Shown here: positions 1-19,848 of the stretch, one piece after another
How positions within the stretch are numbered: position 1 is the stretch's first letter
Layout of the letters: each line of letters starts with the position of its first letter
Assembly (NCBI RefSeq): GCF_040739495.1
Contig: NZ_CP145263.1
Coordinates: 1,178,001 to 1,242,000, forward strand
Length of the DNA stretch: 64,000 bases
From: Staphylococcus capitis subsp. capitis
Lineage (GTDB): Bacteria; Bacillota; Bacilli; Staphylococcales; Staphylococcaceae
Reading direction: 5' to 3'
The notes under the pieces: model-generated
The model's input: only the letters and a program-made list of their open reading frames with translations
Database searches by the model: none
Told to the model about the DNA's origin: nothing
Made by a program: the position numbers and the translations under genes

Positions 1-699
1 GAAGATTACATACATTTTTTACATCAAATTCAAGTGGATCGAATTATTTTCGGTGATCCAGCAGTAGTAATGTTTGTTAAAAAACAATCAAATCCTATCC
101 CTTTACATTGGGATGCTGGAGCATTAGTAACAAATTATTTCCAATGTAATTATTGGGGGAAAAAGGGTGCATCAAGAGCTGTTTTAGCTAAAGAGCTTAG
201 CTTAGAAGAGATGATTAATATTAAAAAGAATGCTAATGTTGAAATCGAAGTCCAAGTACATGGAATGACATGCATGTTTCAATCGAAACGAATGTTGTTA
301 GGTAATTACTATACATTCCAAGACAGACAAATGAAGATTGAGCGCAATAATGCACAACAAGATTTACTTTTATATGATGAAGAACGCGATAACAAATATC
401 CAGTTTTTGAAGATTATAATGGAACGCATATTATGTCTCCGAATGATATTTGTTTAATCGAGGAATTAGAACCATTTTTTGAAGCGGGAATTGACGCATT
501 CAAAATCGATGGCGTTCTACAATCAGAAGACTATATCAATGTAGTAACAGAGCAATATAGAGAAGCAATTGACTTATATAATGAAGACCCTGAAGCATAT
601 GATGATGAAAAATTCATGTTAGTCGATCCTATAGAGGAAATTCAACCTGAACATCGTCCATTCGATGAAGGTTTCTTATATAAACAAACGGTTTACTAA
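1..699 (+). CDS. trhP1: U32-family protein, tRNA 5-hydroxyuridine synthesis (TrhP1/YrrN-like), 5' end missing
   Basis: The frame is open from base 1, so the gene begins upstream of the window; only its last 232 codons are here. It is a peptidase-U32-family protein of the kind shown in Bacillus (YrrN) and E. coli (YegQ) to take part in prephenate-dependent hydroxylation of wobble uridine in tRNA. The family hallmark EVQVHGMTC is visible near window base 245, but the cysteine-rich stretch that follows it in the downstream paralogue is absent here (the region reads QSKRMLLGNYYTF), as expected for the shorter, non-catalytic-looking partner. It ends immediately before a GGGAGG ribosome site for the next gene, so the two are probably co-translated as a pair. 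Confidence 0.85.
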   Translation, partial: EDYIHFLHQIQVDRIIFGDPAVVMFVKKQSNPIPLHWDAGALVTNYFQCNYWGKKGASRAVLAKELSLEEMINIKKNANVEIEVQVHGMTCMFQSKRMLLGNYYTFQDRQMKIERNNAQQDLLLYDEERDNKYPVFEDYNGTHIMSPNDICLIEELEPFFEAGIDAFKIDGVLQSEDYINVVTEQYREAIDLYNEDPEAYDDEKFMLVDPIEEIQPEHRPFDEGFLYKQTVY

Positions 700-718
700 G
701 GGAGGCTTATCATTAATA

Positions 719-1987
719 ATGAAAACTCTAGAAGAAGTTCAATCAAGTTCGAAACCAAAAATGAAAAAGCCAGAATTACTTGCTCCAGCAGGAAATTTAG
801 AGAAACTTAAAATAGCTGTACATTATGGTGCTGATGCAGTATTTTTAGGTGGTCAAGAGTATGGTTTACGTTCAAATGCAGATAATTTTACTATGGATGA
901 AATTGCTGAAGGCGTAGAATTTGCAAATCGTTATGGTGCTAAAATCTACGTTACAACAAATATTATTGCACATGATGAAAATATGGATGGATTAGAGGAA
1001 TATCTACGTCAGTTAGATAAAACAGGCGCAACTGGAATTATTGTAGCTGATCCATTAATCATAGAAACATGCAAAGAGGTCGCACCAAGACTTGAAATTC
1101 ATTTATCTACTCAACAATCCCTTTCAAATTATAAAGCTGTTGAATTTTGGAAAGAAGAAGGTTTAGACCGTGTTGTGTTAGCACGTGAGACAGGCGCTAT
1201 GGAAATGAAAGAAATGAAGGAAAAAGTTGATATTGAAATTGAAGCTTTTATTCATGGTGCAATGTGTATAGCATATTCAGGACGTTGTACATTAAGTAAT
1301 CATATGACAGCTCGTGATTCAAACCGTGGAGGCTGTTGTCAAAGTTGCCGTTGGGACTATGATTTACTTCAAGTAGATAATGATGGAGAACTTGATTTAT
1401 TTTATGAAAATGGAGATGTTACACCGTTTGCAATGAGTCCAAAAGATTTAAAATTAATTGAATCTATACCACAAATGATGGAATTAGGAATCGACTCTTT
1501 AAAAATTGAGGGTAGGATGAAATCTATTCATTATATTGCAACTGTTGTATCAGTTTATCGCAAAGTCATAGACGCTTATGCTATGGATCCTGAGAATTTT
1601 AAGATTAAACCTGAGTGGCTCAAAGAACTGGATAAATGCGCAAATCGGGATACAGCGCCAGCTTTCTTCCAAGGGACACCTGGATATGAAGAGCAAATGT
1701 TTGGAGAAGAACAATCTAAGAAATCAGCTTACGATTTTTGCGGACTAGTACTCGACTATGATGAACAAACGCAACTTGCTACCATACAACAGCGAAACCA
1801 TTTCAAACCAGGACAAGAAATTGAATTCTTTGGTCCTGAAATTGATAGTTTCAGGCAAATTGTTGATGCTATTTATGATGAGGAAGGTAATAGTTTAGAT
1901 GCCGCACGTCATCCATTGCAAATTGTTCAAATTAAAGTCGACAAACCTATTTATGCTAATAACATGATGAGAAAGGAAATCGGCTAA
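719..1987 (+). CDS. trhP2: U32-family tRNA hydroxylation protein (TrhP2/YrrO)
   Basis: 422 aa, the same length as Bacillus YrrO as I recall it. It carries the full U32 signature: [20 protein letters not shown], then [11 protein letters not shown], giving four closely spaced cysteines likely to hold a metal or Fe-S centre, and KIEGRMKS further on. Role: with TrhP1, hydroxylation of U34 in tRNAs on the way to mo5U-type wobble bases. I chose ATG 719 because GGGAGG lies at 700-705; an upstream in-frame ATG at 665 lies inside trhP1 and would place that ribosome site within the coding region. The stop overlaps the udk start by one base. Confidence 0.9.
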
Positions 1988-2610
1988 TGAATCAAACGAC
2001 AATTATTGGTATTGCTGGTGGCTCTGGTTCAGGTAAAACCACTGTTACTAATGAAATTATGAAGAATCTTGAAGGCCACAGTGTTGCACTTTTAGCTCAA
2101 GATTACTATTATAAAGACCAGTCTCATTTAACTTTTGAAGAAAGACTTGAGACAAATTATGATCATCCATTCGCATTCGATAATGATTTACTTATACAAA
2201 ATCTTAAAGATTTAAGAAATGGTATGGCCATCGAAGTTCCTACTTATGATTATTCGAAACATACTCGTAGTGATGAAACGATTGCATTTGAACCAAAAGA
2301 TGTTATTATCGTAGAAGGTATCTTTGCTTTAGAAAATAAAACTTTACGAGATATGATGGATGTAAAAATTTATGTGGATACAGATGCAGATTTAAGAATT
2401 TTACGTAGACTTACACGTGATACTCAAGAACGTGGACGTTCTATGGAGTCTGTAATTAATCAATATTTAAATGTAGTCAGACCAATGCATGAACAATTTA
2501 TTGAACCAACAAAAAAACATGCAGATATTATCATACCTGAAGGTGGCAGTAATAAGGTCGCAATTGATATTATGACTACGAAGATTCAATCACTCGTTAG
2601 CAAAAAATAG
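1987..2610 (+). CDS. udk: Uridine kinase
   Basis: 207 aa, the usual length. Phosphorylates uridine and cytidine to UMP and CMP with ATP or GTP (pyrimidine salvage, cytosolic). Walker [10 protein letters not shown] is at residues 11-19; the [10 protein letters not shown] substrate-loop region and IIVEGIFAL (Walker B-like) follow. The ATG overlaps the last base of trhP2 (TAATG), pointing to translational coupling in the trhP1-trhP2-udk-greA run. Confidence 0.97.
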
Positions 2611-2637
2611 TAACTTATAGTAAAGGAAGATGACATT

Positions 2638-3114
2638 ATGGAAAACCAAAAACAATACCCAATGACTCAAGAAGGTTATGAACAACTTGAGCAAGAATTA
2701 GAAGAATTAAAAACGGTTAAAAGACCAGAAGTTGTTGAAAAAATTAAAGTAGCTCGTTCTTTTGGTGACTTATCAGAGAACTCTGAGTACGATGCAGCAA
2801 AAGATGAACAAGGATTTATCGAACAAGATATTCAACGTATTGAACATATGATTAGAAATGCGCTTATCATTGAAGATAATGGTGATAATAACGTTGTTCA
2901 AATTGGTAAAACAGTCACTTTTGTTGAATTACCAGGTGATGAAGAAGAAAGTTATCAAATAGTAGGTTCTGCTGAAGCTGACGCATTCAAAGGAAAAATT
3001 TCAAATGAATCTCCTATGGCAAATGCTTTAATAGGTAAAGGATTAAATGACGAAGTTCGTGTTCCTCTTCCTAACGGCGGAGAAATGAACGTTAAAATCG
3101 TTGATATCAAATAA
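2638..3114 (+). CDS. greA: Transcription elongation factor GreA
   Basis: 158 aa. Rescues backtracked RNA polymerase by stimulating transcript cleavage. The N-terminal coiled coil (about residues 8-75) holds the acidic tip [14 protein letters not shown] (D/E pair that reaches the active site), followed by the C-terminal FKBP-like domain with [11 protein letters not shown]. Preceded by AAGGAAGATG at about 2622. It is the last gene of the transcript, followed by a strong hairpin terminator. Confidence 0.97.
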
Positions 3115-3162
3115 TTAAATATTTTATTTTAAAATTGCTAGTACTAATGAATTCTAGTATTA

Positions 3163-3196
3163 AGTCCGAGTCATATTTTATGACTTGGACTTTTTT
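3163..3196 (+). terminator. Rho-independent terminator after greA
   Basis: A 13-bp stem, AGTCCGAGTCATA paired with TATGACTTGGACT (one G-T pair), loop TTT, then six T residues. Placed 48 bases after the greA stop, it separates the trhP-udk-greA transcript from the pxp operon. Confidence 0.85.
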
Positions 3197-3520
3197 ATGT
3201 TATTATTATAGAAATTTTAGCTTTAAAGAAACATTACACCATTAAATTTAGTTCTTAATAGATGAGTAGGATAAAATCCTTTTGTTATTCATCATTTTTA
3301 TCATGACAAAAAATAATATGTATGATTAAATAAATATTAGCGATTTTTTGAAATAGAAATGCTATATTTTTTGAAAGACCTTAATTTCTAAATATCAAAT
3401 TATTAGTAATTATCACTAACAATTTGAATTAATTATTAAACAAACATTTTATTGCAATGATACAATTAAATAGTTACAGCAAATAAATCCTTAAAAATTT
3501 AAAGGGGAGGGATTTTAAAG
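3197..3520. promoter_or_regulatory. Intergenic leader of the pxp operon with an 11-base direct repeat
   Basis: A 324-base A+T-rich gap with no open frame. It contains an exact 11-base direct repeat, ATTTTTTGAAA, at 3343-3353 and 3366-3376 (23 bases start to start). This loosely resembles the CodY consensus, but each copy has about five mismatches over 15 positions. An extended -10-like element TGATACAAT sits at 3458-3466. A strong ribosome site, AAAGGGGAGG, ends at 3510. Operator identity is inference only. Confidence 0.4.
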
Positions 3521-4252
3521 TTGGAAACTCAAATTATAAATGAACAAACTGTGATGATTTATTTTGATAATGAAATTAGTGAAAGCACTTACCAACTCGT
3601 TCAATCAACAGTACAATACATAAAGAAACAGAATCATTCAGAGATAACAGAAATCATTCCATCTTATAGAGCAATTCTAATATACTTCGATAATAAGAGG
3701 ATAGAAGGAAATGAATTGTTAGAAAATTTAGAACTTAACCGCTTACAAAACGAGTCAGATGCTAGAACTCGAAATAAGCGTATTATTCAAATTCCTGTTT
3801 TATATGGTGAGGAATATGGACCTGACTTGGCTGAAGTTGCAGAACATAATCATTTAACTAAAGAAGAAGTCAAACAGATTCACACTCGTCAGCCATACCT
3901 TATTTATATGTTAGGCTTTATGCCAGGATTTCCTTATTTAGGGGGGGTTGACGAACGTTTACATACACCAAGACGTTCTGAGCCAAGACTTAAGATTGAG
4001 GCTGGTTCTGTTGGAATAGCCAATAATCAAACGGGATTATATCCAATGGACTCTCCAGGAGGGTGGCAAATTATTGGTCGTACACCTCTTAAGGTTTTTG
4101 ATCTCAATCGAACTCCGATGACAATGTATGAAGCTGGAGATTATATTCAGTTTTATGAGATTGATCAACATGAATATAACAATATATCTGAGGAAATTGA
4201 AAATGGAAAATTTGATATAGATAAGTGGGTGACAAATAAAGATGAGTATTAA
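3521..4252 (+). CDS. pxpB: 5-oxoprolinase subunit PxpB (AHS1/KipI family)
   Basis: 243 aa. AHS1-domain protein: together with PxpC and PxpA it converts 5-oxoproline (pyroglutamate) to glutamate with ATP; the Bacillus homologue was first named KipI. The diagnostic AHS1 block GFMPGFPYLGGVDERLHTPRR is at about residues 132-152, followed by GSVGIANNQTGLYPMDSPGGW. Starts at TTG 3521, ten bases after GGGGAGG. It overlaps pxpC by 11 bases. The same AHS1 fold forms half of the carboxyltransferase domain of urea carboxylase, which matters because BCCP and BC genes follow. Confidence 0.9.
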   Translation: METQIINEQTVMIYFDNEISESTYQLVQSTVQYIKKQNHSEITEIIPSYRAILIYFDNKRIEGNELLENLELNRLQNESDARTRNKRIIQIPVLYGEEYGPDLAEVAEHNHLTKEEVKQIHTRQPYLIYMLGFMPGFPYLGGVDERLHTPRRSEPRLKIEAGSVGIANNQTGLYPMDSPGGWQIIGRTPLKVFDLNRTPMTMYEAGDYIQFYEIDQHEYNNISEEIENGKFDIDKWVTNKDEY

Positions 4253-5246
4253 AATTTTACAACCTGGCTTATTTTCAACAATCCAAGACGAAGGACGTAT
4301 AGGTTATCAAGATTTAGGATTTTCCGGAGCTGGTGCTTTAGACTTTTATAGTTTTAAAATGGCTCAAAAATTAATTGGTAATGATGGACCTGCGATTGAA
4401 TACACTGTTATTGGCCCTAAAGTACAGTTTCTTAAAGAAAATACTTTTGCATTTATCGGTGGAACATCCAATGCAAAATTAAACGGTAATTCCATTGATT
4501 CACAAGTAGTATATAAAGTACAGACTAACGATGTATTAGAAATCGGTCAGGTTACTGAAGGTGCGAGAGGATATCTTGTGTTTGGTCATCCGTTAAAAAT
4601 AGAAAGGATTGCAGAGAGTTATTCTACTCATACTAGAAGTGGACTTGGTGGTTTTGAAGGACGAGCGCTTAAAAAGCATGACATTATACCTACTCAAAGT
4701 AATGCATCTTATAATGAGAATTTAGGTAAAGCAACCTACTATATACCATTAGTAGAGGATAATACTATTCATGTTATTAAAGGTCCTCAATTTAGTTTAT
4801 TTTCAGAGGAAGCAGTAGATACATTTATCAATTCTGAATTTAAGGTTTCAGATCAGTCGGATCGTATGGGTTACAGATTAGTTGGTCCATCCGTTTCACC
4901 TTTGAAAACGGCTGACATTATTTCTGAACCTGTAGCTTTAGGAAGCATCCAAGTTCCTAATGACGGAAACCCAATTATTCTTTTAAATGATAAACAAACT
5001 GTAGGTGGTTATACTAAAATTGCTACAGTTACTCAATTAGATTTAAAAAAATTAGCGCAACTTAAACCGGGAGAAACTATTCGATTTGAATGGATATCTA
5101 CAGAAGAAGCGTTTAAACAATTAATAGAATTTGAAAATGATTTTGAACAAAAATTAATAAACGTGTCAGAACAACCATTATTTAATTTAAGCAATGTAAG
5201 AAACACTTCTAAGAAATTAGCATCACTAATTAAGGAGGACAAATAA
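4242..5246 (+). CDS. pxpC: 5-oxoprolinase subunit PxpC (AHS2/KipA family)
   Basis: 334 aa, the normal length for a stand-alone AHS2 protein. Works with PxpB in 5-oxoproline cleavage; the Bacillus homologue is KipA. The N-terminal signature TIQDEGRIGYQDLGFSGAGALD (split: TIQDEGR, GYQDLG, AGALD) and the central SDQSDRMGYRLVGP block are typical. The start overlaps the end of pxpB (ATGAGTATT within GATGAGTATTAA), which suggests coupled synthesis in equal amounts, fitting a PxpBC complex. In urea carboxylase, AHS1 and AHS2 are fused into one carboxyltransferase domain. Confidence 0.9.
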   Translation: MSIKILQPGLFSTIQDEGRIGYQDLGFSGAGALDFYSFKMAQKLIGNDGPAIEYTVIGPKVQFLKENTFAFIGGTSNAKLNGNSIDSQVVYKVQTNDVLEIGQVTEGARGYLVFGHPLKIERIAESYSTHTRSGLGGFEGRALKKHDIIPTQSNASYNENLGKATYYIPLVEDNTIHVIKGPQFSLFSEEAVDTFINSEFKVSDQSDRMGYRLVGPSVSPLKTADIISEPVALGSIQVPNDGNPIILLNDKQTVGGYTKIATVTQLDLKKLAQLKPGETIRFEWISTEEAFKQLIEFENDFEQKLINVSEQPLFNLSNVRNTSKKLASLIKEDK

Positions 5247-5248
5247 TA

Positions 5249-5704
5249 ATGAATCTTGAAAGAATAGAAGAAATTATAAATTTAGTAAAATCAAATGATG
5301 TAAAAAAGTTTAAATATAAAGACTTTGAGAATGAAATTGAACTTGATTTCACAGAGGGTAATTCATCACAAGGTTTATCTCAAACTGCAAATGTACAATC
5401 AAATGAAATGACACAAACTAATAATGAAACTCAAGATACTAACAACCAAACGCAAGATTCTAGTGATGACAAAGAAATTAAATCTTCTATGGTTGGTACG
5501 TTTTTCTTACAAGATAGTAAAGAATTAACGGATCCCCAAATTAAAGTTGGTGATCAAGTTAAAGAAGGAGATATCATTGGTTACATAGAAGCAATGAAGG
5601 TAATGAACGAAATCACTAGTGACGTGAGTGGTGAGGTTACTGAAATTGTTGTAGAACATGGTACTAATGTTGAATATGATCAAGTATTAGTCAAAGTGAA
5701 GTAA
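5249..5704 (+). CDS. Biotin carboxyl carrier protein (operon-specific AccB homologue)
   Basis: 151 aa. The N-terminal part (LERIEEIINLVKSND) looks like acetyl-CoA carboxylase BCCP; a Gln/Asn/Thr-rich linker covers about residues 45-80, and the biotinyl domain has the canonical EAMKVMNEI with lysine as the biotin site. Its gene lies between pxpC and a biotin carboxylase gene rather than beside accA/accD. Its partner carboxyltransferase is therefore unlikely to be the acetyl-CoA type; PxpB/PxpC (AHS1/AHS2) are the plausible partners. An additional housekeeping accB elsewhere is expected but cannot be seen here. Confidence 0.85.
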   Translation: MNLERIEEIINLVKSNDVKKFKYKDFENEIELDFTEGNSSQGLSQTANVQSNEMTQTNNETQDTNNQTQDSSDDKEIKSSMVGTFFLQDSKELTDPQIKVGDQVKEGDIIGYIEAMKVMNEITSDVSGEVTEIVVEHGTNVEYDQVLVKVK

Positions 5705-5719
5705 GGGGGGAATAGACTT

Positions 5720-7081
5720 ATGTATCGTTGTTTGATTGCAAACAGAGGGGAAATAGCCGTAAGGATTATTCGCGCATGTAGAGAGATGAAAATCGAAACA
5801 GTAGCCATCTATGCCAAAGGCGACGAAGATAGTCTGCATGTAAGTTTAGCTGATCAAGCGATTTGTATTGGAGAAGCTAATCCTTTAGATAGCTATTTAA
5901 ATATAGAACGTATTATCTCAGCAGCAGAAATTACCGGAGCAAATGCGATACACCCTGGTTACGGTTTCTTATCTGAATCAACCACTTTTGCTGAAGCTGT
6001 TGAAGAAAATGATATCCACTTTATTGGCCCTAATAAAAAGACAATGGAAATGATGGGGGATAAAATTACAGCTCGTCAGACCGTTCATGCTGCAAATGTT
6101 CCAGTAATCCCTGGATCTGACGGCGAGGTTGAATCTGTTGATGAAATTAAAAAACTCGCGGAAGAAATAGGATACCCCCTTGTTCTTAAAGCTGCAAGTG
6201 GTGGTGGAGGTAAGGGTATCCGTATCGTTAAAGAACCGGAACAATTAGAAAAATCATTAAAAGAAGCTAAAAGTGAAGGTCAAAAATATTTTAATGATGA
6301 TCGTGTATACGTTGAAGCTTTTATTCCCGTTGCAAAGCATGTAGAGGTTCAAGTCATCGGCGATGGTAAAAATAACTATGTTCATTTAGGTGAACGTGAT
6401 TGTTCAGTGCAACGAAAAAATCAAAAACTTATTGAAGAATCACCTTGTGCTGCATTAACAGATGAAAGACGAGAACGGATTTGTAATGATGCTGTTAAAG
6501 TAGCAAAGGCATCTAATTATAGAAGTGCTGGTACAATTGAATTTTTAGTAACAGAGGATGCTCACTACTTTATTGAGATGAATGCACGTATCCAAGTCGA
6601 ACATACAGTTACTGAAATGCGAGCAGATAGAGATCTTTTACAAGCACAATTGTACTTATTGCAATATGGTGAATTACCGTTCCAACAAGAAGATATAGTA
6701 TTTAACGGACATGTAATTGAAGCACGTATTAATGCTGAAAATCCAGAAAAGAAATTCCAGCCCACTCCTGGTAAAGTGAAGAAATTACATTTACCACAAG
6801 GATTTAATATTCGAGTAGATTCTTTATTATATTCCGGTTATCAAGTATCACCATATTATGACTCACTTGTAGCAAAAGTGATTGTAAAAGACTCAAATAG
6901 ACAAACAGCTATCAATAAATTGAAAGTTGCATTAGATGAAATGGTTATTGAAGGTTTCACTACAACAGCAGATTTCTTATACGCAGTATTAAGTTATCCG
7001 TTATATGCAGATGGTGATGCAAGTGAAGTTGATATTAAATTCTTAGAGAAGCATCAAATCATTAAAGGGGTGGATTTATAA
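5720..7081 (+). CDS. Biotin carboxylase (operon-specific AccC homologue)
   Basis: 453 aa, full length. ATP-dependent carboxylation of biotin on the carrier protein. N-terminal [20 protein letters not shown]-grasp glycine loop [13 protein letters not shown] at about residues 158-170, catalytic region [15 protein letters not shown], and a biotin-carboxylase C-terminal domain from about residue 330 ([11 protein letters not shown]). Preceded by AAGGGGGGAATAG. It ends one base into pxpA, so the pair is translationally coupled. No acetyl- or propionyl-type carboxyltransferase subunit is encoded nearby. Confidence 0.9.
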
Positions 7082-7833
7082 TGCAAATCGATTTGAATTG
7101 TGATTTAGGTGAAGCATTTGGAAATTATTCATTTGGTGGCGACAAAGATATTATTCCATTAATTACTTCGGCAAACATTGCTTGTGGTTTTCACGCCGGT
7201 GATGAAAATGTAATGAATGAGACAATACAACTTGCTAAAGAAAATAATGTAGGCATAGGAGCACATCCAGGTTTACCTGATTTACAAGGTTTCGGCAGAC
7301 GCAAAATGGATATTAAACCTAAAGAAATCTACAATTTAGTTGTCTACCAATTAGGTGCTTTGAATGGTTTTTGTAAAATTCATGGAACTCGTATAAATCA
7401 TGTTAAACCTCATGGTGCTTTATATAACATGGGCGCTAAAAATAAAGAAATTGCTCAAGCTATTGCACAAGCGGTTTATGATTTCGATAAGTCCTTAGTG
7501 CTAGTTGGACTATCTAATACATTGTTAATTTCAGAAGCTGAAGCGCTTGGTTTACGTACTGCTTCAGAAGTTTTTGCAGATCGTCGTTATGAAGATGATG
7601 GTCAGCTTGTAAGTCGTCAAGAATCAGATGCGACAATTACAAATACGGATGAAGCATTACAGCAAGTGTTAAAAATGGTTACTGAGAATAAAGTTGTTAG
7701 TAAAAATGGTAAAGAAATTGATTTACAAGCCGATACAATATGTGTCCATGGTGATGGTGCTCATGCACTTGATTTTGTAACTCAAATTAGAAAAAAATTA
7801 ACGAAAGAAGGCATTGATATTCAATCCTTATAG
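7081..7833 (+). CDS. pxpA: 5-oxoprolinase subunit PxpA (LamB/YcsF family)
   Basis: 250 aa. LamB/YcsF proteins are the catalytic lactam-opening component of the prokaryotic 5-oxoprolinase. The N-terminal [18 protein letters not shown] and [11 protein letters not shown] blocks carry conserved acidic and histidine residues, and [11 protein letters not shown] and VHGDGAHAL supply more histidines. ATG overlaps the stop of the biotin carboxylase gene (TAATG). Gives glutamate from pyroglutamate formed spontaneously from glutamine. Confidence 0.92.
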
Positions 7834-7845
7834 GGGGTACCAGAG

Positions 7846-9102
7846 ATGGGAGAAAATTTTAAACAAAGCAACAATCAAGAAACAAAACAAAGTGGGAAAG
7901 AATTTAAATTTACAAAAGGTCATAGACGTTTATTATATGGTTCAGTATTTTTGATGGCTACTTCTGCCATTGGTCCGGCATTTCTTACTCAAACGGCTGT
8001 TTTCACAGCACAATTTTATGCTAGTTTTGCATTCGCTATTTTAATATCAATATTAATTGATATTGGTGCTCAAATTAATATTTGGCGTGTTTTAGTAGTT
8101 ACTGGATTACGTGGTCAAGAAGTTTCAAATAAAGTTGTACCTGGATTAGGCACAGTGATATCAATATTAATAGCATTTGGGGGACTTGCATTTAATATAG
8201 GTAATATTGCAGGTGCAGGTCTTGGACTCAATGCAATGTTTGGTTTAGATGTTAAATGGGGTGCAGCTATAACTGCAATATTCTCTATCTTAATCTTTGT
8301 AAGTAAAAGTGGCCAAAAAATAATGGATGTAGTATCTATGATTCTAGGGGTAGTAATGATTTTGGTCGTTGCATATGTGATGGTAGTTTCTAATCCTCCA
8401 TACGGTGATGCATTAGTACACATGGTTGCACCTGAACATCCAATTAAACTTATTTTACCTATAATTACTTTAGTTGGAGGCACTGTAGGTGGTTATATAA
8501 CTTTTGCTGGAGCACACCGATTATTAGACTCTGGCATGAAAGGTAAAGAGTTTTTACCTTTCGTTAACAGATCTGCGATTGCAGGTATTTTAACAACAGG
8601 AGTTATGAGAACTTTACTTTTCTTAGCAGTTTTAGGTGTGGTTGTTACTGGAGTTACGTTAAGTGCAGAAAATCCACCTGCTTCAGTGTTTGAACACGCT
8701 ATTGGTCCAATAGGAAAAAATATATTTGGTGTAGTTATTTTTGCAGCAGCGATGTCATCTGTTATCGGTTCAGCATATACAAGTGCAACCTTCTTGAAGA
8801 CATTACATAAGTCTTTATTTAATAAAAATAATTTAATAGTCATTATGTTTATAGTTATCTCAACATTAATTTTCTTATTCATTGGTAAACCTGTAAGTTT
8901 ACTTATAATTGCGGGAGCAATCAATGGTTGGATTTTACCAATCACACTAGGGGCTATCTTAATTGCTAGTCGTAAAAAATCTATTGTTGGAGATTATAAA
9001 CATCCTACTTGGATGCTTGTTTTCGGAATCATAGCAGTTATAGTTACGATTATCACTGGTATTTTCTCTCTACAAGATTTAGCAAGCTTATGGAAAGGTT
9101 AA
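7846..9102 (+). CDS. NRAMP-fold membrane transporter (YcsG-like), metal-site residues absent
   Basis: 418 aa with about eleven hydrophobic segments after a polar N-terminus (about 30 residues rich in Gln/Asn/Lys). By-eye alignment of the first membrane segment (GPAFLTQTAVFTAQF) to canonical NRAMP (GP-FL---- DPGN) replaces the DPGN metal-binding motif by TAQF. The sixth-segment MPH motif is replaced by a stretch reading TFAGAH. It is therefore probably not a Mn/Fe carrier. As the last gene of the pxp operon it may move 5-oxoproline, a related amide or a co-ion. Ribosome site GGGGGTACCAGAG before ATG 7846. A terminator follows. Confidence 0.8.
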   Translation: MGENFKQSNNQETKQSGKEFKFTKGHRRLLYGSVFLMATSAIGPAFLTQTAVFTAQFYASFAFAILISILIDIGAQINIWRVLVVTGLRGQEVSNKVVPGLGTVISILIAFGGLAFNIGNIAGAGLGLNAMFGLDVKWGAAITAIFSILIFVSKSGQKIMDVVSMILGVVMILVVAYVMVVSNPPYGDALVHMVAPEHPIKLILPIITLVGGTVGGYITFAGAHRLLDSGMKGKEFLPFVNRSAIAGILTTGVMRTLLFLAVLGVVVTGVTLSAENPPASVFEHAIGPIGKNIFGVVIFAAAMSSVIGSAYTSATFLKTLHKSLFNKNNLIVIMFIVISTLIFLFIGKPVSLLIIAGAINGWILPITLGAILIASRKKSIVGDYKHPTWMLVFGIIAVIVTIITGIFSLQDLASLWKG

Positions 9103-9114
9103 TTATTTTTTATT

Positions 9115-9146
9115 ACTTCACGTCGTTAAGATGTGAAGTATTTTTT
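9115..9146 (+). terminator. Rho-independent terminator after the pxp operon
   Basis: Stem ACTTCACGTC / GATGTGAAGT (one G-T pair), loop GTTAA, followed by a T-rich tail at 9141-9146. Confidence 0.8.
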
Positions 9147-9272
9147 ATTAAAAAGTCTTAAAAATTTAATTATTTAACTCCCTATTGATAATTAACTTAT
9201 CCTATCGTGATGAATTTTAAAATGTGATAAAATACGTAGTGCTAGGACTTTTTAAATGAGGTGTAAATAGAA

Positions 9273-9959
9273 ATGATAGGCATAATTGGAGCTATGGAAA
9301 AAGAAGTAGGTATACTCAAAGATAAAATTGTCGACTTAAGTGAAATTAGTGTGGCACACGTAAAATTCTATACTGGTACACTTAATAATAAAGACATTGT
9401 TTTAACTCAAAGTGGAATAGGTAAAGTGAATGCTACTATATCTACGACTTTATTAATTGAAAAATTCAATCCTGATATAGTAATTAATACAGGTTCTGCT
9501 GGCGCTCTTGATGAGAGTTTAAAAGTGGGTGACGTATTAGTTAGTAATGAAGTCATTTATCATGATGTAGATGCAACAGCATTTGGTTATGCTTATGGTC
9601 AAATCCCGCAAATGCCAGAGCGTTATGAGTCTAGTGAAAAATTATTAGAAAAAACAATTGATATATTAAAACAGCAACAGCTAAATGGTAAAGTGGGCAT
9701 GATTACTAGTGGCGATAGTTTTATTGGTAGTGCTCAACAACGAAATAAAATTAAATCACAATTTCCAGATGCAATGGCAGTAGAAATGGAAGCGACAGCT
9801 ATTGCACAAACATGTTTCCAATTTAACGTTCCATTTATTGTGACGAGAGCAGTTTCAGATTTAGCTAATGGAGAAGCAGATATTTCATTTGAAGAATTTT
9901 TAGGTCAAGCTGCGATTTCTTCTAGTGAGACAGTTGAATTGTTAGTTAAATCATTATAA
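9273..9959 (+). CDS. mtnN: 5'-methylthioadenosine/S-adenosylhomocysteine nucleosidase
   Basis: 228 aa, normal length. Splits MTA and SAH to adenine plus the thioribose or ribosylhomocysteine; it feeds methionine salvage and the activated methyl cycle. [10 protein letters not shown] at the N-terminus includes the catalytic Glu, [11 protein letters not shown] is the ribose-binding block and [10 protein letters not shown] carries the catalytic Asp. An extended -10-like TGATAAAAT lies at about 9225-9233. It begins the downstream cluster with yqeG, 21 bases apart. Confidence 0.95.
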
Positions 9960-9980
9960 AAGTAAAGGTGAATTTATAAA

Positions 9981-10505
9981 ATGGGTATTATTAAAAATTT
10001 ATTTATGCCAAATGCATACGTACAATCTGTATTCGATATAGATATAGAAAAATTAGCGAGTATGGGAGTTAAAGGAATCATTACAGACCTGGATAACACC
10101 CTTGTTGGTTGGGACGTTAAAGAGCCTACCGAGAGAATTAAAGAGTGGTTCTCTAAAGCACGTGAGCTTGGTATTACAATTACAATTGTGTCGAACAATA
10201 ATGAAGAACGTGTATCTAGTTTTTCTAAAGATTTAGAAGTAGATTTTATATTCAAAGCACGTAAACCAATGGGTAAAGCTTTTATAAAAGCTATTAAACA
10301 AATGAATATACAAGCTAAAGAAACTGTTGTTATTGGAGATCAAATGCTTACAGATGTTTTCGGTGGTAATCGCAATGGACTATATACTATTATGGTCGTT
10401 CCAGTTAAAAGAACTGATGGCTTTGTGACTAAATTTAATCGTCTAATTGAAAGACGCTTATTAAATCATTTTAGAAAAAAAGGTTATATCAAATGGGAGG
10501 AATAG
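9981..10505 (+). CDS. yqeG: YqeG family HAD-type phosphatase
   Basis: 174 aa. HAD superfamily, subfamily IIIA. Motif I DLDNTLVGWD (nucleophile Asp plus the second Asp) is at about residues 36-45, motif II IVSNNNEERV (Ser/Asn) follows, and VIGDQMLTDVFGG is motif IV. Physiological substrate unknown to me. Nearly always next to the ribosome-assembly GTPase yqeH, as here (three bases between stop and start). Confidence 0.9.
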   Translation: MGIIKNLFMPNAYVQSVFDIDIEKLASMGVKGIITDLDNTLVGWDVKEPTERIKEWFSKARELGITITIVSNNNEERVSSFSKDLEVDFIFKARKPMGKAFIKAIKQMNIQAKETVVIGDQMLTDVFGGNRNGLYTIMVVPVKRTDGFVTKFNRLIERRLLNHFRKKGYIKWEE

Positions 10506-10508
10506 TGT

Positions 10509-11609
10509 TTGAGTGAATTACTAAAATGTATTGGTTGTGGCGCTCCACTACAATCAGAAGATAAAAATGCTCCAGGCTATGTACCTGAACATAATATGTT
10601 CCGTGAAGATGTTATATGTCAAAGATGTTTTAGATTAAAAAATTATAATGAAGTTCAAGATGTTGGGATGGACAGTGAGGATTTCTTAAATTTATTAACT
10701 GGTCTTTCTAATAAATCTGGTATTGTAGTTAATGTTGTGGATGTTTTTGACTTTGAAGGTTCATTTATTAATGCAATTAAGCGTATTGTAGGTAATAAAA
10801 AAATCATTTTAGCTGCAAACAAACTTGATCTACTACCTAAACAAATCAATCAGCGTCGTGTAAAAGAGTGGTTAAAGAAAACTGCTAGAAAATACGGCTT
10901 AGAAGCCGATGATGTTGTACTTATTTCAGCCGATAAAGGTTGGGGCATTGAAGAGTTGATGCAGTCAATTAATCAAGTAAGAAATAATGAGGACGTTTAT
11001 GTCGTAGGTACGACTAATGTAGGGAAATCTACTTTAATTAATAAATTAATTGAAATTAGTGTTGGTGAAAAAGATGTAGTAACTACTTCAAGATTTCCAG
11101 GTACTACTTTGGACATGATTGATATTCCGCTTGATGAAACTACGTTTATGTATGATACACCTGGTATTATACAAGAGCATCAAATGACAAACTATGTCTC
11201 TGATATAGAATTAAAAACTATTATGCCTAAAAAGGAAATAAAACAACGCGTATATCAACTAAATGAAGAACAAACATTATTTTTTGGTGGTTTAGCTAGA
11301 ATTGATTATGTATCTGGAGGTAAAAGATCATTAGTATGTTTCTTCTCCAATGATTTAAATATCCATAGAACAAAAACTGAAAAAGCTAATGAATTATGGA
11401 AAAATCAATTGGGTTCACTTTTAACACCACCACATGACGCAAGTCAATTTGATTTAAATGACGTAAAAGCTGTTAGATTAGAAACTGGTAAAGCTAAACG
11501 TGATGTAATGATATCAGGCTTAGGATTTATCACAATTGACGAAGGTGCAAAAGTGATCGTGCGTGTACCCAAAAATGTAGACGTCATTTTAAGAAATTCT
11601 ATTTTATAA
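10509..11609 (+). CDS. yqeH: Ribosome biogenesis GTPase YqeH
   Basis: 366 aa. Circularly permuted GTPase needed for 30S assembly. The N-terminal zinc finger has CIGCGAPL and [10 protein letters not shown]4 (AANKLDLLP) comes before G1 (GTTNVGKST) and G3 (DTPGI), the order expected for permuted GTPases. Starts at TTG 10509 with GGGAGG at 10495-10500 inside the end of yqeG. Followed by aroE. Confidence 0.95.
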
Positions 11610-11625
11610 AAGGGAGTGGTTGAGA

Positions 11626-12434
11626 ATGAAATTTGCAGTAATTGGCCATCCGATTTCTCATTCTTTATCACCTATAATGCATAGTGCTAACTTTTCAAAT
11701 TTAAGTTTAAATTACACCTATGAACCACTAGACATTCCTATTGACGAATTCCTCTTACTTAGAGACATCATTACTGAAAAGAAACTTAGTGGATTTAATG
11801 TCACTATCCCTCATAAAGAGCGGATAATTCCTTACCTAGACGAGGTAGATGAGCAATCTAAAACAGTTGGTGCGGTAAATACTGTTTTAATTAGAGATGG
11901 TAAGTGGATAGGCTATAATACAGATGGAATAGGTTATGTAACTGGCTTAAAGCAAATTTATGATGATTTAAAGAATGCTTATATACTCATATTAGGTGCT
12001 GGTGGTGCAAGTAAAGGAATTGCTAACGAATTAACTAAATTTGTTGAACCTAAATTAACGATTGCTAATCGTACAATGTCAAGATTTGAAGATTGGAATT
12101 TAGATATTAATGCTATTTCTCTAAATGACGCTGAGAAGTATTTGGATGAATTTGATATCGTTATTAATACAACACCTGCTGGGATGGATAAAAACAATGA
12201 TAGTGTGATAAATCTAAGAAATTTATCTCCTCATACGTTAGTAAGTGATATAGTGTACATTCCTTATAAGACTCCAATCTTATTAGAAGCTGAAAGTAAA
12301 GGTAACCCCATTTATAATGGTTTAGATATGTTTGTGTATCAAGGTGCTGAAAGCTTTAAAATTTGGACAGGAGAACAACCTAATATTCAAATCATGAAAA
12401 ATACTGTATTAGATAAATTAAAAGGAGATTTATA

Positions 12435-12435
<1 letters not shown>
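11626..12435 (+). CDS. aroE: Shikimate dehydrogenase
   Basis: 269 aa. NADPH-dependent reduction of 3-dehydroshikimate to shikimate in aromatic amino-acid synthesis. [13 protein letters not shown] (shikimate-binding Ser pair), NVTIPHKE (catalytic Lys), and the nucleotide-binding LGAGGASKG are seen. ATG 11626 preferred over TTG 11620 because AGGGAG at 11611-11616 is then at normal spacing and the protein begins MKFAVIG as in relatives. Overlaps yhbY by one base. Confidence 0.93.
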
Positions 12436-13871
<1,436 letters not shown>

Positions 13872-14225
13872 ATGAGTTCAGAAGAATTATTAAATATTGC
13901 TGTCGAAGCGACAGAAAACAAAAAAGCAGAAGATGTAATTTCTCTTAATATGCAAGGTATCAGCGATATGACTGATTACTTTGTTGTGTGTCATGGTAAC
14001 AATGAGCGACAAGTACAATCCATTGCAAGAGCTGTTAAAGAAGCTGTTCATGAGCAAGGTATTGATGTTAAACGTATGGAAGGTTATAACGACGCAAGAT
14101 GGGTATTAATTGATTTAGCTAATGTTGTGGTTCATATTTTCCATAAAGATGAGCGAAATTATTATAATATCGAGAAATTATATCAAGATGCTCCGTATGA
14201 GTCATATGGTCAGGTTGCTTATTAA
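13872..14225 (+). CDS. rsfS: Ribosome silencing factor RsfS
   Basis: 117 aa. Binds L14 on the 50S subunit and blocks subunit joining in starved cells. Family blocks SDMTDYFVVCHGNNERQV and GYNDARWVLIDLANVVVHIF are both present. No gap to yqeK (stop then ATG). Confidence 0.95.
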   Translation: MSSEELLNIAVEATENKKAEDVISLNMQGISDMTDYFVVCHGNNERQVQSIARAVKEAVHEQGIDVKRMEGYNDARWVLIDLANVVVHIFHKDERNYYNIEKLYQDAPYESYGQVAY

Positions 14226-14228
14226 AAT

Positions 14229-14948
14229 ATGAGTCAATACGAAGATATGAGTTTGGTCTATGACCAGCTTACTCAAGATCAACCATATGATGCTTGGTTC
14301 AATATAGTTCAAACCTTTTCAAAGAGAGAATCTAATGACATTCTAGATTTAGGTTGCGGTACAGGAAATTTAACACATATGTTGGTTCCATTAGGCAATG
14401 TTATCGGAATGGATTTAAGTGTTGATATGTTAACTATCGCTAATCAAAAATCTAATGAGGTTAGATGGTTAGAAGGAGATATGACAAGTTTTAAGTTGAA
14501 CCAAAAATTCAATATCATTACAATATTTTGTGATTCACTGAATTATTTATCTTCAAGTAAAGAAGTTAAAGAAACCTTTAATAAAGTTTACCAGCATTTA
14601 ACCGATGATGGAGTATTTCTATTTGATGTGCATACTGTACATAAGATGAATACTTTATTTAATAATCAAAGTTATATTGATGAAACCGAAAATGTCTACT
14701 TAGCTTGGGAAGCAATTCAAGGTAATGAACCATTAAGTGTTTATCATGAAATGACTTTTTTCATTCATAATAATAATGGAAGTTATCGACGCTTTGATGA
14801 ATCCCATTATCAACGCACATATGAAGAAGATGTTTATAAAAGGTTACTCAATGAGGCTGGTTTTAAAGAAATTAAAACTTTCACCGATTTTGATTTTAAT
14901 CAAAAAGAAGAAGATGCTGATCGATTATTTTTCGTTGTAAAAAAATAG
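14229..14948 (+). CDS. Class I SAM-dependent methyltransferase (YqeM-like)
   Basis: 239 aa. SAM-binding motif I ILDLGCGTGNLTHML at about residues 37-51, acidic residue in GMDLSVDML, and a motif like FDVHTVHKM. Substrate not known. Last gene of the yqeG-to-yqeM run; its terminator-type hairpin begins 21 bases past the stop and also contains the comEA ribosome site. Confidence 0.85.
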   Translation: MSQYEDMSLVYDQLTQDQPYDAWFNIVQTFSKRESNDILDLGCGTGNLTHMLVPLGNVIGMDLSVDMLTIANQKSNEVRWLEGDMTSFKLNQKFNIITIFCDSLNYLSSSKEVKETFNKVYQHLTDDGVFLFDVHTVHKMNTLFNNQSYIDETENVYLAWEAIQGNEPLSVYHEMTFFIHNNNGSYRRFDESHYQRTYEEDVYKRLLNEAGFKEIKTFTDFDFNQKEEDADRLFFVVKK

Positions 14949-14968
14949 ATTATGAAATAAATAGAAGT

Positions 14969-15012
14969 AAAATCACTCGTTCATACGTTATTAAGTGTGA
15001 AGGGGTGATTTT
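14969..15012 (+). terminator. Terminator-type hairpin that contains the comEA ribosome site
   Basis: Left arm 14969-14986 pairs with right arm 14995-15012 over 18 positions with a single G-G mismatch (two G-T pairs), loop GTTATTAA; six T residues run 15009-15014. The right arm contains AAGGGGTGA (15000-15008), the only Shine-Dalgarno for comEA, whose TTG start (15013-15015) immediately follows the arm. It can act as a terminator for yqeM and as a lid on comEA translation. Confidence 0.8.
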
Positions 15013-15693
15013 TTGTTTAACAAAGGTAATAAGTATATTGAATTTATTATTAAATGGAAAATTTATTTAATTATAGGTCTAGTAGTTTTAGCAATGGTAG
15101 TTTTAAGTCTATTTAATCATTATGAAGACAATAGCAAAGAGGACGAATTTAACAAAGAGATTAATAGCAAGCAGGTTAATTCTAAGAGATATAGTTCAAC
15201 TAACAATGATAATAATGAAAAAGAAAGACAACCTCAAAGAGCAAACAACAATGAAAAAATTTTTATAGATATTAAAGGTGCAGTAGAACATCCAAATGTT
15301 TATCAGATGACAAACACTGAAAGAGTCATAGATGCAATTAATAAAGCTAAACCTCATAAGGATGCAGACTTATCACAAATAAACTTATCTGAAAGGTTAA
15401 TAGATTAAAAGCTAATTTATGTTCCTAAAAAGGGAGAACACAGTCAATATAATACGGTAAATAATATTTCAAATAATAATATCAATCAAAATGAGGGAAA
15501 TAAACAAATTAATTTGAATAATGCCACTGAAACGGATTTTAAAAGCATTCCAGGCGTCGGTCCTTCTAAAGCAAGAGAAATAATTAATTATAGAGAACAA
15601 AATGGAGGGTTCAAGAATATAGAAGATTTGAGAAAAATTAAAGGATTTGGCGAAAAAACATTTGAGAAAATTAAAGAACATCTTGTTGTTTAA
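15013..15693 (+). pseudogene. comEA: comEA, DNA-binding competence protein, interrupted by an in-frame TAA
   Basis: Reading from TTG 15013 the frame holds an N-terminal membrane anchor (about residues 10-32), a polar Asn/Lys-rich linker and a SLBB-type block (IFIDIKGAVEHPNVYQM). It is stopped by TAA at 15406-15408 after 131 codons. The same frame continues without interruption to TAA 15691 with KLIYVPKKGE and a helix-hairpin-helix DNA-binding domain (INLNNATETDFKSIPGVGPS). Restoring codon 132 (for example GAA to TAA by one base) would give a 226-aa ComEA. The surviving 5' piece lacks the DNA-binding domain, so DNA capture should fail. A sequencing error cannot be excluded. Confidence 0.85.
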
Positions 15694-15774
15694 CTGGTCA
15701 ATGATTGCATTTATAATTATAAATGATTAAGCTATAAATGTTGATTGTTATTCAAGATAAGGAGGCACCTTTAC

Positions 15775-16236
15775 ATGGAACGAATTAAATGGGAAGAATA
15801 TTTTATGGCTCAAAGTCATTTACTTGCTTTGAGATCAACATGTCAGAGACTATCTGTAGGAGCTACTATTGTTAAAGATAATCGAATTATAGCAGGAGGC
15901 TACAATGGTTCAGTTGCCGGTGAAGTGCACTGCATAGATGAAGGTTGCCTAATAGAAGATGGACATTGTATCAGAACAATTCATGCAGAAATGAATGCAT
16001 TACTTCAGTGTGCTAAACAAGGCGTTTCAACAGAGGGAGCGACAATATATGTTACACATTTCCCTTGTTTAAATTGTACTAAATCTATTATTCAATCAGG
16101 GATTAAAACAATTTATTATGCTGAAGATTACCACAATCATAATTATGCGATTAAGTTACTAAATCAATCTGGTATTGAATATAAAAAAATTCCATTTACA
16201 CCGGAATATGTAGCTCAATATCTAACACAGGGGTAA
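15775..16236 (+). CDS. comEB: ComEB, dCMP deaminase family protein
   Basis: 153 aa from ATG 15775, seven bases after AAGGAGGCAC. Zinc-dependent deoxycytidylate deaminase fold: zinc ligands in HAEMNALL (His plus catalytic Glu) and PCLNCTKS. In Bacillus it sits in comE but is dispensable for transformation. It is the only undamaged gene of this operon, which fits a separate role in dCMP/dUMP metabolism. It ends three bases before comEC. Confidence 0.9.
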   Translation: MERIKWEEYFMAQSHLLALRSTCQRLSVGATIVKDNRIIAGGYNGSVAGEVHCIDEGCLIEDGHCIRTIHAEMNALLQCAKQGVSTEGATIYVTHFPCLNCTKSIIQSGIKTIYYAEDYHNHNYAIKLLNQSGIEYKKIPFTPEYVAQYLTQG

Positions 16237-16239
16237 TCA

Positions 16240-18457
16240 ATGATATACATAGCACTATCATTTTTAGTAGGGATACTTTGGATGAATTTCAAAGTTATCT
16301 CTATCTCTTTATTTTTCCTTTTAATCTTATTAATCTTCATCAAAAAACTTAAACTTCCAATAATCTTACTTATTGTTGTGTGTCCTTTCTTTTCAAATTA
16401 TATTACTCAAACATATAACCAACGTGTTGACCATGAACAACTCATACTAATGTATAATCCAAAAGTTAATGATTACGTAAAATTTAAAACACTTAAAGTT
16501 CAAAATAATTTTATTACTGGAATATTAGTTTATAAAGGTAAAAATTATAATTTCTTTTATAATAACAATAATAAGACAAGCATTACCTCCCTCAAACATC
16601 ACACTTGTAGTATAAATGGGGAATTCAAGTTTGATAAAGTTCCTCCATCAATTACATTGAATGAAATTCACACAAATTCATGTACTTTTAATGATAGGTT
16701 TAAATTCATTTATCTCCATCAAGACTATATAATCGATAAGATTCAACATTCAGGTGTAAATTATCCCAATCGAATTTTAGCACTGATTACAGGTAATCCA
16801 TTATTATTCAATGCTGATTTTAGAGATAAAGTGAAGGATATAGGTATATATCATTTACTAGCAGTGAGTGGGACTCATGTAGCAGCAATTATACTTCTCA
16901 TTCATCAACTTTTAGTGAGATTTAACACGCCGCTTGTCATTATTAAAACAATGATTATTAATGTTTTAGTACTATACGCTGTTTATACTGACTTTGTTCC
17001 TAGCGCAGTAAGAGCAATTTCAATCGCAATATTAGTTTTAATCCTTCCCTAAAAGATTCAGAAAATCTTCTATTGATTTGCTTTCTATCATATTTATTAT
17101 GATGTTTATAAGCAATCCAGGTTATGTTTATGAGATAGGTTTTCAATTTTCTTTCTTAATTTGCTTTTTTATTTTACTATCACAACCTTATTTAAAAAAG
17201 TTAACTTCATTTCAAAGCATATTAGCCATTACATGTATAGCTCAATATAGTTCTATTATTATAAGTACATATCATTTTAATCAATTTCAATGGATTGGTT
17301 TCCTCTCGAATTTAGTTTTTGTGCCTTTCTACAGTTTCATACTTTTTCCTTCAATAATTTTCTTTTTTATTATGACTCACATTGTATCAAATTTTGAAAT
17401 TCTAAATGTTTACATGAATAAAATTTATGAAATACATGATTTATTACTCCACTTCTTTTTAAATTTTAATAATTATAAGTGGTTTATACCTTCTTTAAGC
17501 GAAATTTATCTACTAATATTGTTAATAAATATATTGATTGCTTATTATTTATTAGTGTACAAAAAGATTTTTAAATCCCTAATATACTTTTTAATTACCT
17601 TAGTAATAATATCTACATTGAGTAAACCTTCAAACGCAGAGTTAACAATTTTTGATGTAGGCCAGGGGGATAGCATACTTTTCAAAAGTAATACAAATAA
17701 AACTGTATTAATAGATACTGGAGGGAAAGGAGAAGAAAACTTTGAATTTAAACATCATAATATTGCTAAATACAAAATACTCCCAAGTTTGAAGCGAAGA
17801 GGTATTACTACGATTGATTATTTAATTATTACTCATCCACATGCGGATCATATGGGGGAGCTTCCTTATATCATAGACCATGTTAAAATTAAAAATTTAA
17901 TATTAAACAGTGATGGTTTTCCTAAGCATTTATTAAATCAAGTTCACAACGAATGCAAGAAAAAAAGGATAAATATAATTGAAGCTAAAAATATACCTCA
18001 AATAAAGATTGATGATACTGAATTAGAAATTTACGATACATTTATATCCTCAAGTTCCGATAAAAATGAGTATTCAATCATTACATTAATAAAATATAAC
18101 AATAGAAATATTTTACTTATGGGTGATGCCACTAAAAACAATGAGGATATTTTATTGAAGAAATATCATTTGCCTACAATAGATATTTTAAAAGTAGGAC
18201 ATCATGGTAGTCGAGCAAGTAGCTCTGAAGAATTTATTAAGAAAATTCAACCAAGGTTAAGTTTGATTTCAAGTGGAAAACATAATAAATATAAATTACC
18301 TAATGATGAAGTAATTGAACGTTTAAAGAGATATGGAAGCTTAGTGTATGACACGCAACAAAACGGTGAAATGACGATTAATTTAGATAAACACCATTTA
18401 AATGTGATGAATGTTAAAAATCATCTAAAAACTATCGCTAGAGAAGTCAGTCAATAA
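16240..18457 (+). pseudogene. comEC: comEC, DNA uptake channel, frameshifted
   Basis: Two frames make up one gene. The first (16240-17052) has the N-terminal membrane segments and the competence-domain start (YHLLAVSGTHVAAIILLIHQLL). It ends at TAA 17050. The second (about 17042-18457) continues FPKRFRKSSIDLL, further membrane segments, and a metallo-beta-lactamase-like domain (DVGQGDSILF, THPHADHMGE, KVGHHGSRASS). Around 17041-17052 the sequence ATCCTTCCCTAA looks like ATCTTCCCTAAA with one extra C. Removing one base would give a 738-aa ComEC of normal size. The channel is therefore predicted non-functional unless this is an assembly error. Confidence 0.88.
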
Positions 18458-18459
18458 AA

Positions 18460-18468
18460 TGATATAAT
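18460..18468 (+). promoter_or_regulatory. Extended -10 element upstream of holA
   Basis: TGATATAAT immediately after the comEC stop, 34 bases before the holA start. No convincing -35 is visible. It would allow holA to be transcribed independently of the comE operon. Confidence 0.45.
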
Positions 18469-18502
18469 TTAAAAGTATGAGATATAGAGGAAGGATGCAC
18501 TT

Positions 18503-19477: not shown

Positions 19478-19491
19478 ATTAATGATTAAAC

Positions 19492-19524
19492 AAAAAAGAT
19501 CAAGCATAGTGCTTGATCTTTTTT
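19492..19524. terminator. Bidirectional terminator between holA and rpsT
   Basis: Perfect inverted repeat: AAAAAAGATCAAGCA, loop TAG, TGCTTGATCTTTTTT. It has a T tract on either strand, so it can stop both converging transcripts. Confidence 0.9.
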
Positions 19525-19535
19525 AATAAACTGAA

Positions 19536-19787
19536 TTATTTGTTAGCTGTCATAAGTTGAGATTTAATACGATCAGCTTTGTTTGAGTGAATTAAGTTGC
19601 TTTGAGCAGCTTTATCAACTTGTTTAATTGCAAAACTTAATAATTCATTTTTGTTTTCAGCATCAGTAGAGATAGCTGTTTTAGCGCGTTTAACTGCTGT
19701 ACGCATTGCATTCTTTTTAGAGATATTACGTGCTTCAGCTGTTTCAGTTGTTCTAACACGTTTAACTGCAGATTTAATGTTTGGCAT
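19536..19787 (-). CDS. rpsT: 30S ribosomal protein S20
   Basis: 83 aa, MPNIKSAVKRVRTTE at the start, the normal N-terminus. An upstream in-frame GTG at 19796 exists, but it is part of the AGGAGGTG ribosome site, so ATG 19787 is the true start. Lys/Arg-rich all-helical protein that binds 16S rRNA. The gene sits on the strand opposite to its neighbours, as in other staphylococci. Confidence 0.95.
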   Translation of the reverse strand: MPNIKSAVKRVRTTETAEARNISKKNAMRTAVKRAKTAISTDAENKNELLSFAIKQVDKAAQSNLIHSNKADRIKSQLMTANK

Positions 19788-19848
19788 TTCTGTCACCTCC
19801 TAAAAGTGAGCTTAACTTATCAAAATTTATTTGATTACAACAAGAAAT

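Follow-up and report, generated by a model that had tools for sequence, protein, structure and literature searches.

A Staphylococcus capitis operon that joins biotin carboxylase and biotin carrier genes to a putative 5-oxoprolinase

A six-gene operon of Staphylococcus capitis subsp. capitis combines the genes of a 5-oxoprolinase, pxpA, pxpB, and pxpC, with those of a biotin carboxylase (BC), a biotin carboxyl carrier protein (BCCP), and a transporter. The operon occupies positions 3521-9102 of the DNA that we analysed (NZ_CP145263.1, 1,178,001-1,242,000; this whole stretch of 64,000 nucleotides is referred to as the window, and operon coordinates are window positions). Going by the sequences, we take the block to encode a prokaryotic-type ATP-dependent 5-oxoprolinase with its own BC-BCCP pair as a dedicated partner. 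A functional partnership of some sort between BC-BCCP and PxpABC is probable, because the genes are inherited as a unit, the linkage recurs in other groups, and the title of PDB entry 9yx5 describes MSMEG_0435-0436 as bound to a mycobacterial long chain acyl-CoA carboxylase complex (we know the entry from its title and chain sequences). Catalytic use of carboxybiotin by the 5-oxoprolinase is the likeliest of the accounts that we weighed, but we hold it tentatively and at somewhat less than even odds.

All six genes are intact open reading frames on the + strand with Pfam or NCBIfam matches, in the order that an earlier note on this DNA had given. The genes pxpB (3521-4252, CT_C_D, KipI-like) and pxpC (4242-5246, CT_A_B) overlap by 11 bp, BC and pxpA overlap by 1 bp, and the remaining gaps are 2-15 bp. 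PxpB scores 246.8 bits against PF02682 and 214.4 against TIGR00370 (cut-off 145.55), as expected of a PxpB subunit. PxpC scores 269.5 bits against PF02626 and 262.2 against TIGR00724 (cut-off 230.2), and its predicted fold is nearest to E. coli YbgK and to the carboxyltransferase domain of urea amidolyase. The named protein matches listed for PxpC are all from Staphylococcus, the nearest among them from S. caprae (80% identity). BCCP (5249-5704, 151 amino acids) is AccB-like, carries the biotin motif EAMKVMNE, and scores 64.1 bits against PF00364. BC (5720-7081) scores 629.7 bits against NF006367 (cut-off 597) and 600.6 against TIGR00514 accC (cut-off 626.5). PxpA (7081-7833, LamB/YcsF) scores 351.8 bits against PF03746 and 462.4 against NF003813 (cut-off 392), as expected of a PxpA subunit. 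The Nramp-type transporter (7846-9102) scores 90.0 bits against PF01566. The score of PxpC against NF045499 (221.7) is below the cut-off of 500, and so are those of 3/3 Bacillota PxpC without BC and of one Salinivibrio PxpC (200.5-276.7); this cut-off does not discriminate and was dropped as evidence.

The domain set of urea carboxylase (BC, BCCP, CT_A_B, and CT_C_D) is all present, spread over four genes. Against TIGR02712, PxpB scores 53.5, PxpC 174.8, BC 490.9, and BCCP 36.4; the cut-off of 1303.85 applies to the whole protein and is out of reach for split genes. In the earlier note, the operon was said to contain every part of a split urea-carboxylase-like enzyme. This is right for the domains; the active-site residues are of the 5-oxoprolinase type.

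The order pxpB-pxpC-BCCP-BC-pxpA-transporter is identical in 14/14 stretches from the order of the window (11 from the same genus, one from another genus of the family, and two from another family), which were chosen as the top matches to the window PxpC. In 19/19 Bacillota sets with BC, pxpB, pxpC, BCCP, and BC follow one another with no other searched gene in between. In 11 other Staphylococcus genomes, the operon BC shares 76-92% identity with the window BC, and PxpC shares 45-60% with its window counterpart. The operon is flanked by greA upstream and mtnN downstream. In 3/3 relatives without the block, greA is directly followed by mtnN, and the searches found neither PxpA nor the extra BC (BCCP was not searched for there). 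The gain or loss of BC together with PxpABC speaks against a spare acetyl-CoA carboxylase pair.

In each of these three family members, PxpC gives one weak match (E 1e-12 to 1e-20), presumably a diverged second copy. Two PxpC matches are present in 19/19 other genomes drawn from the genus, the diverged copy having been inspected in the window's genome alone. In that genome, the diverged second PxpB/PxpC pair (L089:9361-11056; G000 C3:1981465-1983055, minus strand) adjoins pabB/pabC-like open reading frames (named by eye), and its PxpB is without R151, P155, Q170, and G181. To judge from its sequence, the pair is perhaps non-catalytic or re-purposed.

The linkage is also found in more distant groups. 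A Limosilactobacillus fermentum plasmid carries all six genes, two genomes of family f34 have PxpBC linked with BC/BCCP, and two rhizobial plasmids (L018 and L109) carry sets with BC and BCCP whose PxpB has Arg at column 151 (the Arg type, described below). Three rhizobial stretches have, beside the ordinary BCCP, a second BCCP-like gene whose product is without the biotin-accepting MK motif (L018:4863-5297, L109:4872-5297, and L108:10443-10838). The earlier note had proposed that PxpB/PxpC could N-carboxylate the lactam or another amide with carboxybiotin and so prime it for PxpA. What stands of this proposal is that BC/BCCP belong with PxpABC, on the grounds of the conserved block, the joint absence in 3/3 relatives, the linkage elsewhere, and the title of 9yx5.

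A second acetyl-CoA carboxylase is an unlikely account of the operon BC and BCCP, in which they would feed AccAD and share the operon for joint regulation only. The operon BCCP is AccB-like, with 113.2 bits against TIGR00531, a near miss of the AccB-type cut-off of 115.2; the housekeeping BCCP scores 171.7 bits. The checked BC catalytic residues are kept in 19/19 operon copies and the EAMK biotin motif in 19/19 Bacillota operon BCCPs; this speaks for catalytic use of carboxybiotin, and an intact BC is also what an acetyl-CoA carboxylase would require. The residue labels for the catalytic check follow E. coli BC. The field's own reading also points to fatty-acid synthesis. In S. aureus, the promoter of a six-gene operon that includes pxpB, pxpC, pxpA, accB, and accC gives one of the five strongest binding peaks of CcpE, and accB/accC of this operon are filed under fatty-acid synthesis genes (PMC11315280). 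We take it as orthologous to the window operon; window PxpC is 57% identical to S. aureus PxpC. SAUSA300_1476 and SAUSA300_1564 are termed two alleles of Acc, and two BCCP bands in a streptavidin blot could not be identified (PMC12642757). In the available portions of these papers, no mechanism is proposed for the S. aureus operon (PMC11315280), and no link is drawn between the biotin genes and 5-oxoproline chemistry (PMC11315280, PMC12642757). Our literature search found no paper on a biotin link of PxpABC, and none on PDB 9yx5.

Against a second acetyl-CoA carboxylase stands a separate housekeeping accBC elsewhere in the genome (C3:1250022-1251835). The genome also has a pyruvate-carboxylase-like gene outside the operon. 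The extra BC, PxpA, and the operon PxpC are missing jointly in the three block-less relatives. Neither accA nor accD is found among the six genes of the block or among the annotated genes of the Limosilactobacillus stretch. In addition, SAUSA300_1563 and SAUSA300_1566 are listed in a transposon mutant library screen (PMC8944730), and insertion mutants therefore seem viable. On sequence comparison, the operon BC-BCCP pair looks dedicated to the 5-oxoprolinase.

In the mechanism that we propose, the operon BC would carboxylate the biotin of the operon BCCP, using ATP and bicarbonate, and the carrier would dock on the PxpB-PxpC pair, by analogy with PDB 9yx5. The carboxyl group would contribute to activating 5-oxoproline, or a closely related lactam, ahead of its cleavage by PxpA, beside or in place of direct ATP use by PxpBC. 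PxpB and PxpC would thus activate the lactam, PxpA would open the 5-oxoproline ring to yield glutamate, and the transporter would supply 5-oxoproline or a metal. The current assumption is that PxpBC phosphorylates 5-oxoproline and PxpA opens the ring (PMC13274462). Activation by way of bicarbonate or carboxyphosphate has been considered for another ATP-dependent lactamase (PMC8453981), which makes carboxyl-based priming chemically reasonable. The most specific form of the proposal is a biotin-dependent 5-oxoprolinase, in which PxpB-PxpC would receive the carboxyl group from the operon BC-BCCP and N- or O-carboxylate 5-oxoproline at an Arg-type carboxyltransferase site that differs from the Lys site of urea carboxylase; CO2 would be released when PxpA opens the primed ring. 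We regard this form as rather doubtful. If it is true, 5-oxoproline recycling in staphylococci depends on biotin. If the partnership is catalytic, a staphylococcal biotin enzyme has been mistaken for a redundant pair of fatty-acid genes, and lactam activation by PxpBC could be tested with a defined carboxyl donor that is added or removed.

The observations that weigh against a carboxybiotin-using 5-oxoprolinase concern distribution, phylogeny, and the active site. PxpC is present in 80/249 genomes of an even draw of Bacillota. BC and BCCP adjoin PxpC in only 2/77 stretches of the phylum (L058 and L067), and the other 75 are without BC/BCCP, where this means no BC and BCCP within the fetched stretch, several stretches being short (down to 3.7 kb). 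At the class level, BC and BCCP adjoin PxpC in 15/40 stretches, a non-random set chosen from listed matches to the window PxpC. Sets with the biotin genes in the operon are thus in the minority, and they reappear in distantly related groups. Moreover, 34/80 PxpC-bearing Bacillota genomes give no Biotin_carb_C match; 17 of the 34 are at least 97% complete, and three (G166, G216, and G241) have partial PxpC matches only. The 29 aligned PxpB from genomes without BC have Arg151, Pro155, Gln170, Trp182, and Gly206, as in the window. On this sequence evidence, the Arg-type PxpB/PxpC set functions without any biotin carboxylase, since genomes that lack one keep the same PxpB residues. The idea that every PxpABC depends on biotin through the housekeeping BC is rejected on the same 34/80 count.

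The phylogenies do not establish repeated recruitment. In the PxpBC tree (in the large version of which the rows without BC are a random sample of 62 from 96), the sets with BC from Bacillota occupy three separate positions. However, the approximately unbiased (AU) test does not reject their placement in a single clade (43 rows, LG+G4; p-AU 0.146), and in that comparison the tree is better when the Bacillota sets with BC are held together with the f34 pair left out. Several independent gains within Bacillota are not secure, because one clade is not rejected, and we make no such claim. Operon BCs lie on different branches of the BC tree according to whether they come from the window's order, family f34, rhizobia, or haloarchaea. 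The well-supported branches force only one origin, and the place of the haloarchaeal sequences is flagged as a possible long-branch join. Our confidence in catalytic use of carboxybiotin is slightly reduced, because the BC tree forces no separate origins of the operon BCs.

The active site is the third point. For the urea amidolyase of K. lactis (KlUA), the residue put forward as the likely general base is Lys1605, in the carboxyltransferase domain (PMC5770610). In our sequence alignment, Lys1605 corresponds to the Lys of a TKYNP motif, and that column corresponds to PxpB Arg151. The window PxpB is of the Arg type (R151, Q170, and W182), with Arg in place of the general-base Lys of urea carboxylase. 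Among 206 PxpB sequences, column 151 is Arg in 19/19 Bacillota sets with BC/BCCP, in 98/98 without, in 2/2 rhizobial sets, and in L108; it is Lys in 84/84 of a separate locus group and in L088, and the diverged second PxpB of the window genome has His there. At column 182, this diverged copy and every Arg-type row have Trp, and the Lys rows have Tyr. The four urea carboxylases that we compared have Lys and Tyr at the two columns.

The window PxpB matches all 20 columns at which at least 95% of pairs without BC share one residue, R151 and W182 included, and over these columns 377/380 cells agree in the 19 Bacillota sets with BC. For PxpC of the same 19 sets, 657/703 cells agree over 37 columns, and the window deviates at 42, 116, and 117 only. 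When Bacillota PxpBC with and without BC are compared, two weakly different PxpB columns and zero PxpC columns pass the test, so the co-occurrence of BC/BCCP with particular PxpB/PxpC residues that the earlier note had looked to shows no strong signature. Its assignment of PxpB/PxpC as a urea-carboxylase-like carboxyltransferase is unsupported: the 20 conserved PxpB columns are ordinary, R151/W182 stand where Lys/Tyr would be expected, and pairs from genomes without biotin carboxylase carry identical PxpB residues at the checked columns.

The unaltered PxpB residues would suit a docking or regulatory role, in which BC/BCCP binds PxpBC without using carboxybiotin on the lactam and, for example, adjusts 5-oxoprolinase or the synthesis of fatty acids to the status of bicarbonate, biotin, or carbon. 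Docking is consistent with the title of 9yx5, in which a PxpBC-like pair is bound to an entire acyl-CoA carboxylase complex. Regulation fits the high rank of the S. aureus operon among the targets of CcpE, which responds to citrate (PMC11315280). However, this role leaves unexplained why the BC catalytic residues and the BCCP biotin site are kept in all 19 Bacillota copies, and we consider it rather unlikely.

The window PxpC is, by its sequence, not fully ordinary, given its loss of Gly-Gly at 116-117 and the difference at column 42. Gly-Gly is lost in 12 Staphylococcus and L209, that is, in 13/19 Bacillota PxpC with BC. Each of the two columns keeps its Gly in 95/96 pairs without BC, and Gly-Gly is kept in 16/16 Lys rows. 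The loss would be in line with another substrate, an amide or lactam that BC/BCCP/PxpBC N-carboxylates and whose product PxpA cleaves, 5-oxoproline not being the substrate. The rhizobial sets with BC point the same way, because they adjoin aminotransferase and amino-acid transporter genes. Another substrate is nonetheless quite improbable: PxpA is a strong equivalog match to NF003813, and a transporter of the Nramp/APC kind accompanies pxpABC in C. glutamicum and B. subtilis (PMC13274462).

From its position beside pxpABC, the window transporter is taken as of the YcsG/PxpT kind, with 5-oxoproline or Mn2+ as substrate. By analogy, it may import either. The published roles of this kind disagree, being 5-oxoproline uptake for C. 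glutamicum PxpT (PMC13274462) and Mn2+ import for B. subtilis YcsG (PMC10448178). Across the 11 other Staphylococcus genomes, the transporter is 76-92% identical, equal to the operon BC.

The survey splits PxpBC with the same gene set in two, an Arg type, which occurs both with biotin carboxylase and without it, and a Lys type, which is the better search ground for a new biotin-dependent amide carboxylase. In the PxpBC tree, the Lys rows and L088 form the sister group of urea carboxylase (combined group 99*). PxpA, BCCP, BC, PxpB, and PxpC are present in 78/80 Lys-type loci, and the other two loci are on short contigs. These 80 loci (L112-L191) are the best 80 of at least 493 confirmed matches in a scan with two peptide patterns; they are mostly from alphaproteobacteria and include near relatives (L020 is close to L112), so that the 84/84 count is of sequences and not of independent events. 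Two haloarchaeal plasmids also carry the Lys-type operon. The Lys-type BCCP is short, with a VMK motif in L019, L107, and L112. Among the neighbors of four Lys-type operons (9 proteins, Pfam) are sugar-type ABC transporter parts, a solute-binding protein, sugar-nucleotide genes, and a LysR regulator, and no common substrate clue is seen among them. One stretch from the window's class, L088 (G194 C43), has Lys-type PxpBC, and no BC or PxpA is found within its 16.8 kb. The Lys type is the likelier true amide carboxylase, and its operons (L112-L191, L019, L020, L021, and L107) are candidate new biotin-dependent amide or lactam carboxylases. The mechanism of the earlier note would suit this clade of alphaproteobacteria and haloarchaea better than the window.

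A terminator-like hairpin stands on each side of the window operon on the + strand. The one 3' of greA and 5' of the operon (3162-3192) has a 14-pair stem and a T tail, and the one 3' of the transporter gene (9114-9140) has an 11-pair stem and a T tail. The intergenic region 3193-3520 (+ strand) is the expected place of the operon promoter; no promoter site was identified in it. No Rfam match reaches the gathering score in window positions 1-20000. A CcpE motif 5' of pxpB (3400-3417, two mismatches to the printed S. aureus motif) was discarded, with 33 such matches in the window against 31.5 expected.

Among known systems, the PxpABC sets with PxpT or YcsG of B. subtilis and C. glutamicum (pxpTABC; PMC13274462) share PxpA, PxpB, PxpC, and the transporter with the window, and Bacillota PxpBC pairs without BC share its diagnostic PxpB residues. 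The window differs in having BC and BCCP added in the operon and in PxpC columns 42, 116, and 117. Compared with urea carboxylase and urea amidolyase (KlUA and bacterial Uca), the window is split in four genes, Arg151/Trp182 of PxpB replace Lys1605/Tyr, and PxpA replaces allophanate hydrolase. The Lys-type PxpA-BCCP-BC-PxpB-PxpC operons share the gene kinds of the window and differ in the sister position of their PxpBC to urea carboxylase, in the Lys/Tyr set, and in the short BCCP. MSMEG_0435-0436 of M. smegmatis (PDB 3mml; 9yx5) is PxpBC-like and of the Arg type by sequence, and it is in the same entry as the BC-BCCP protein AccA3. Its partner in 9yx5, as far as title and chain sequences tell, is an acyl-CoA carboxylase complex, unlike in the window.

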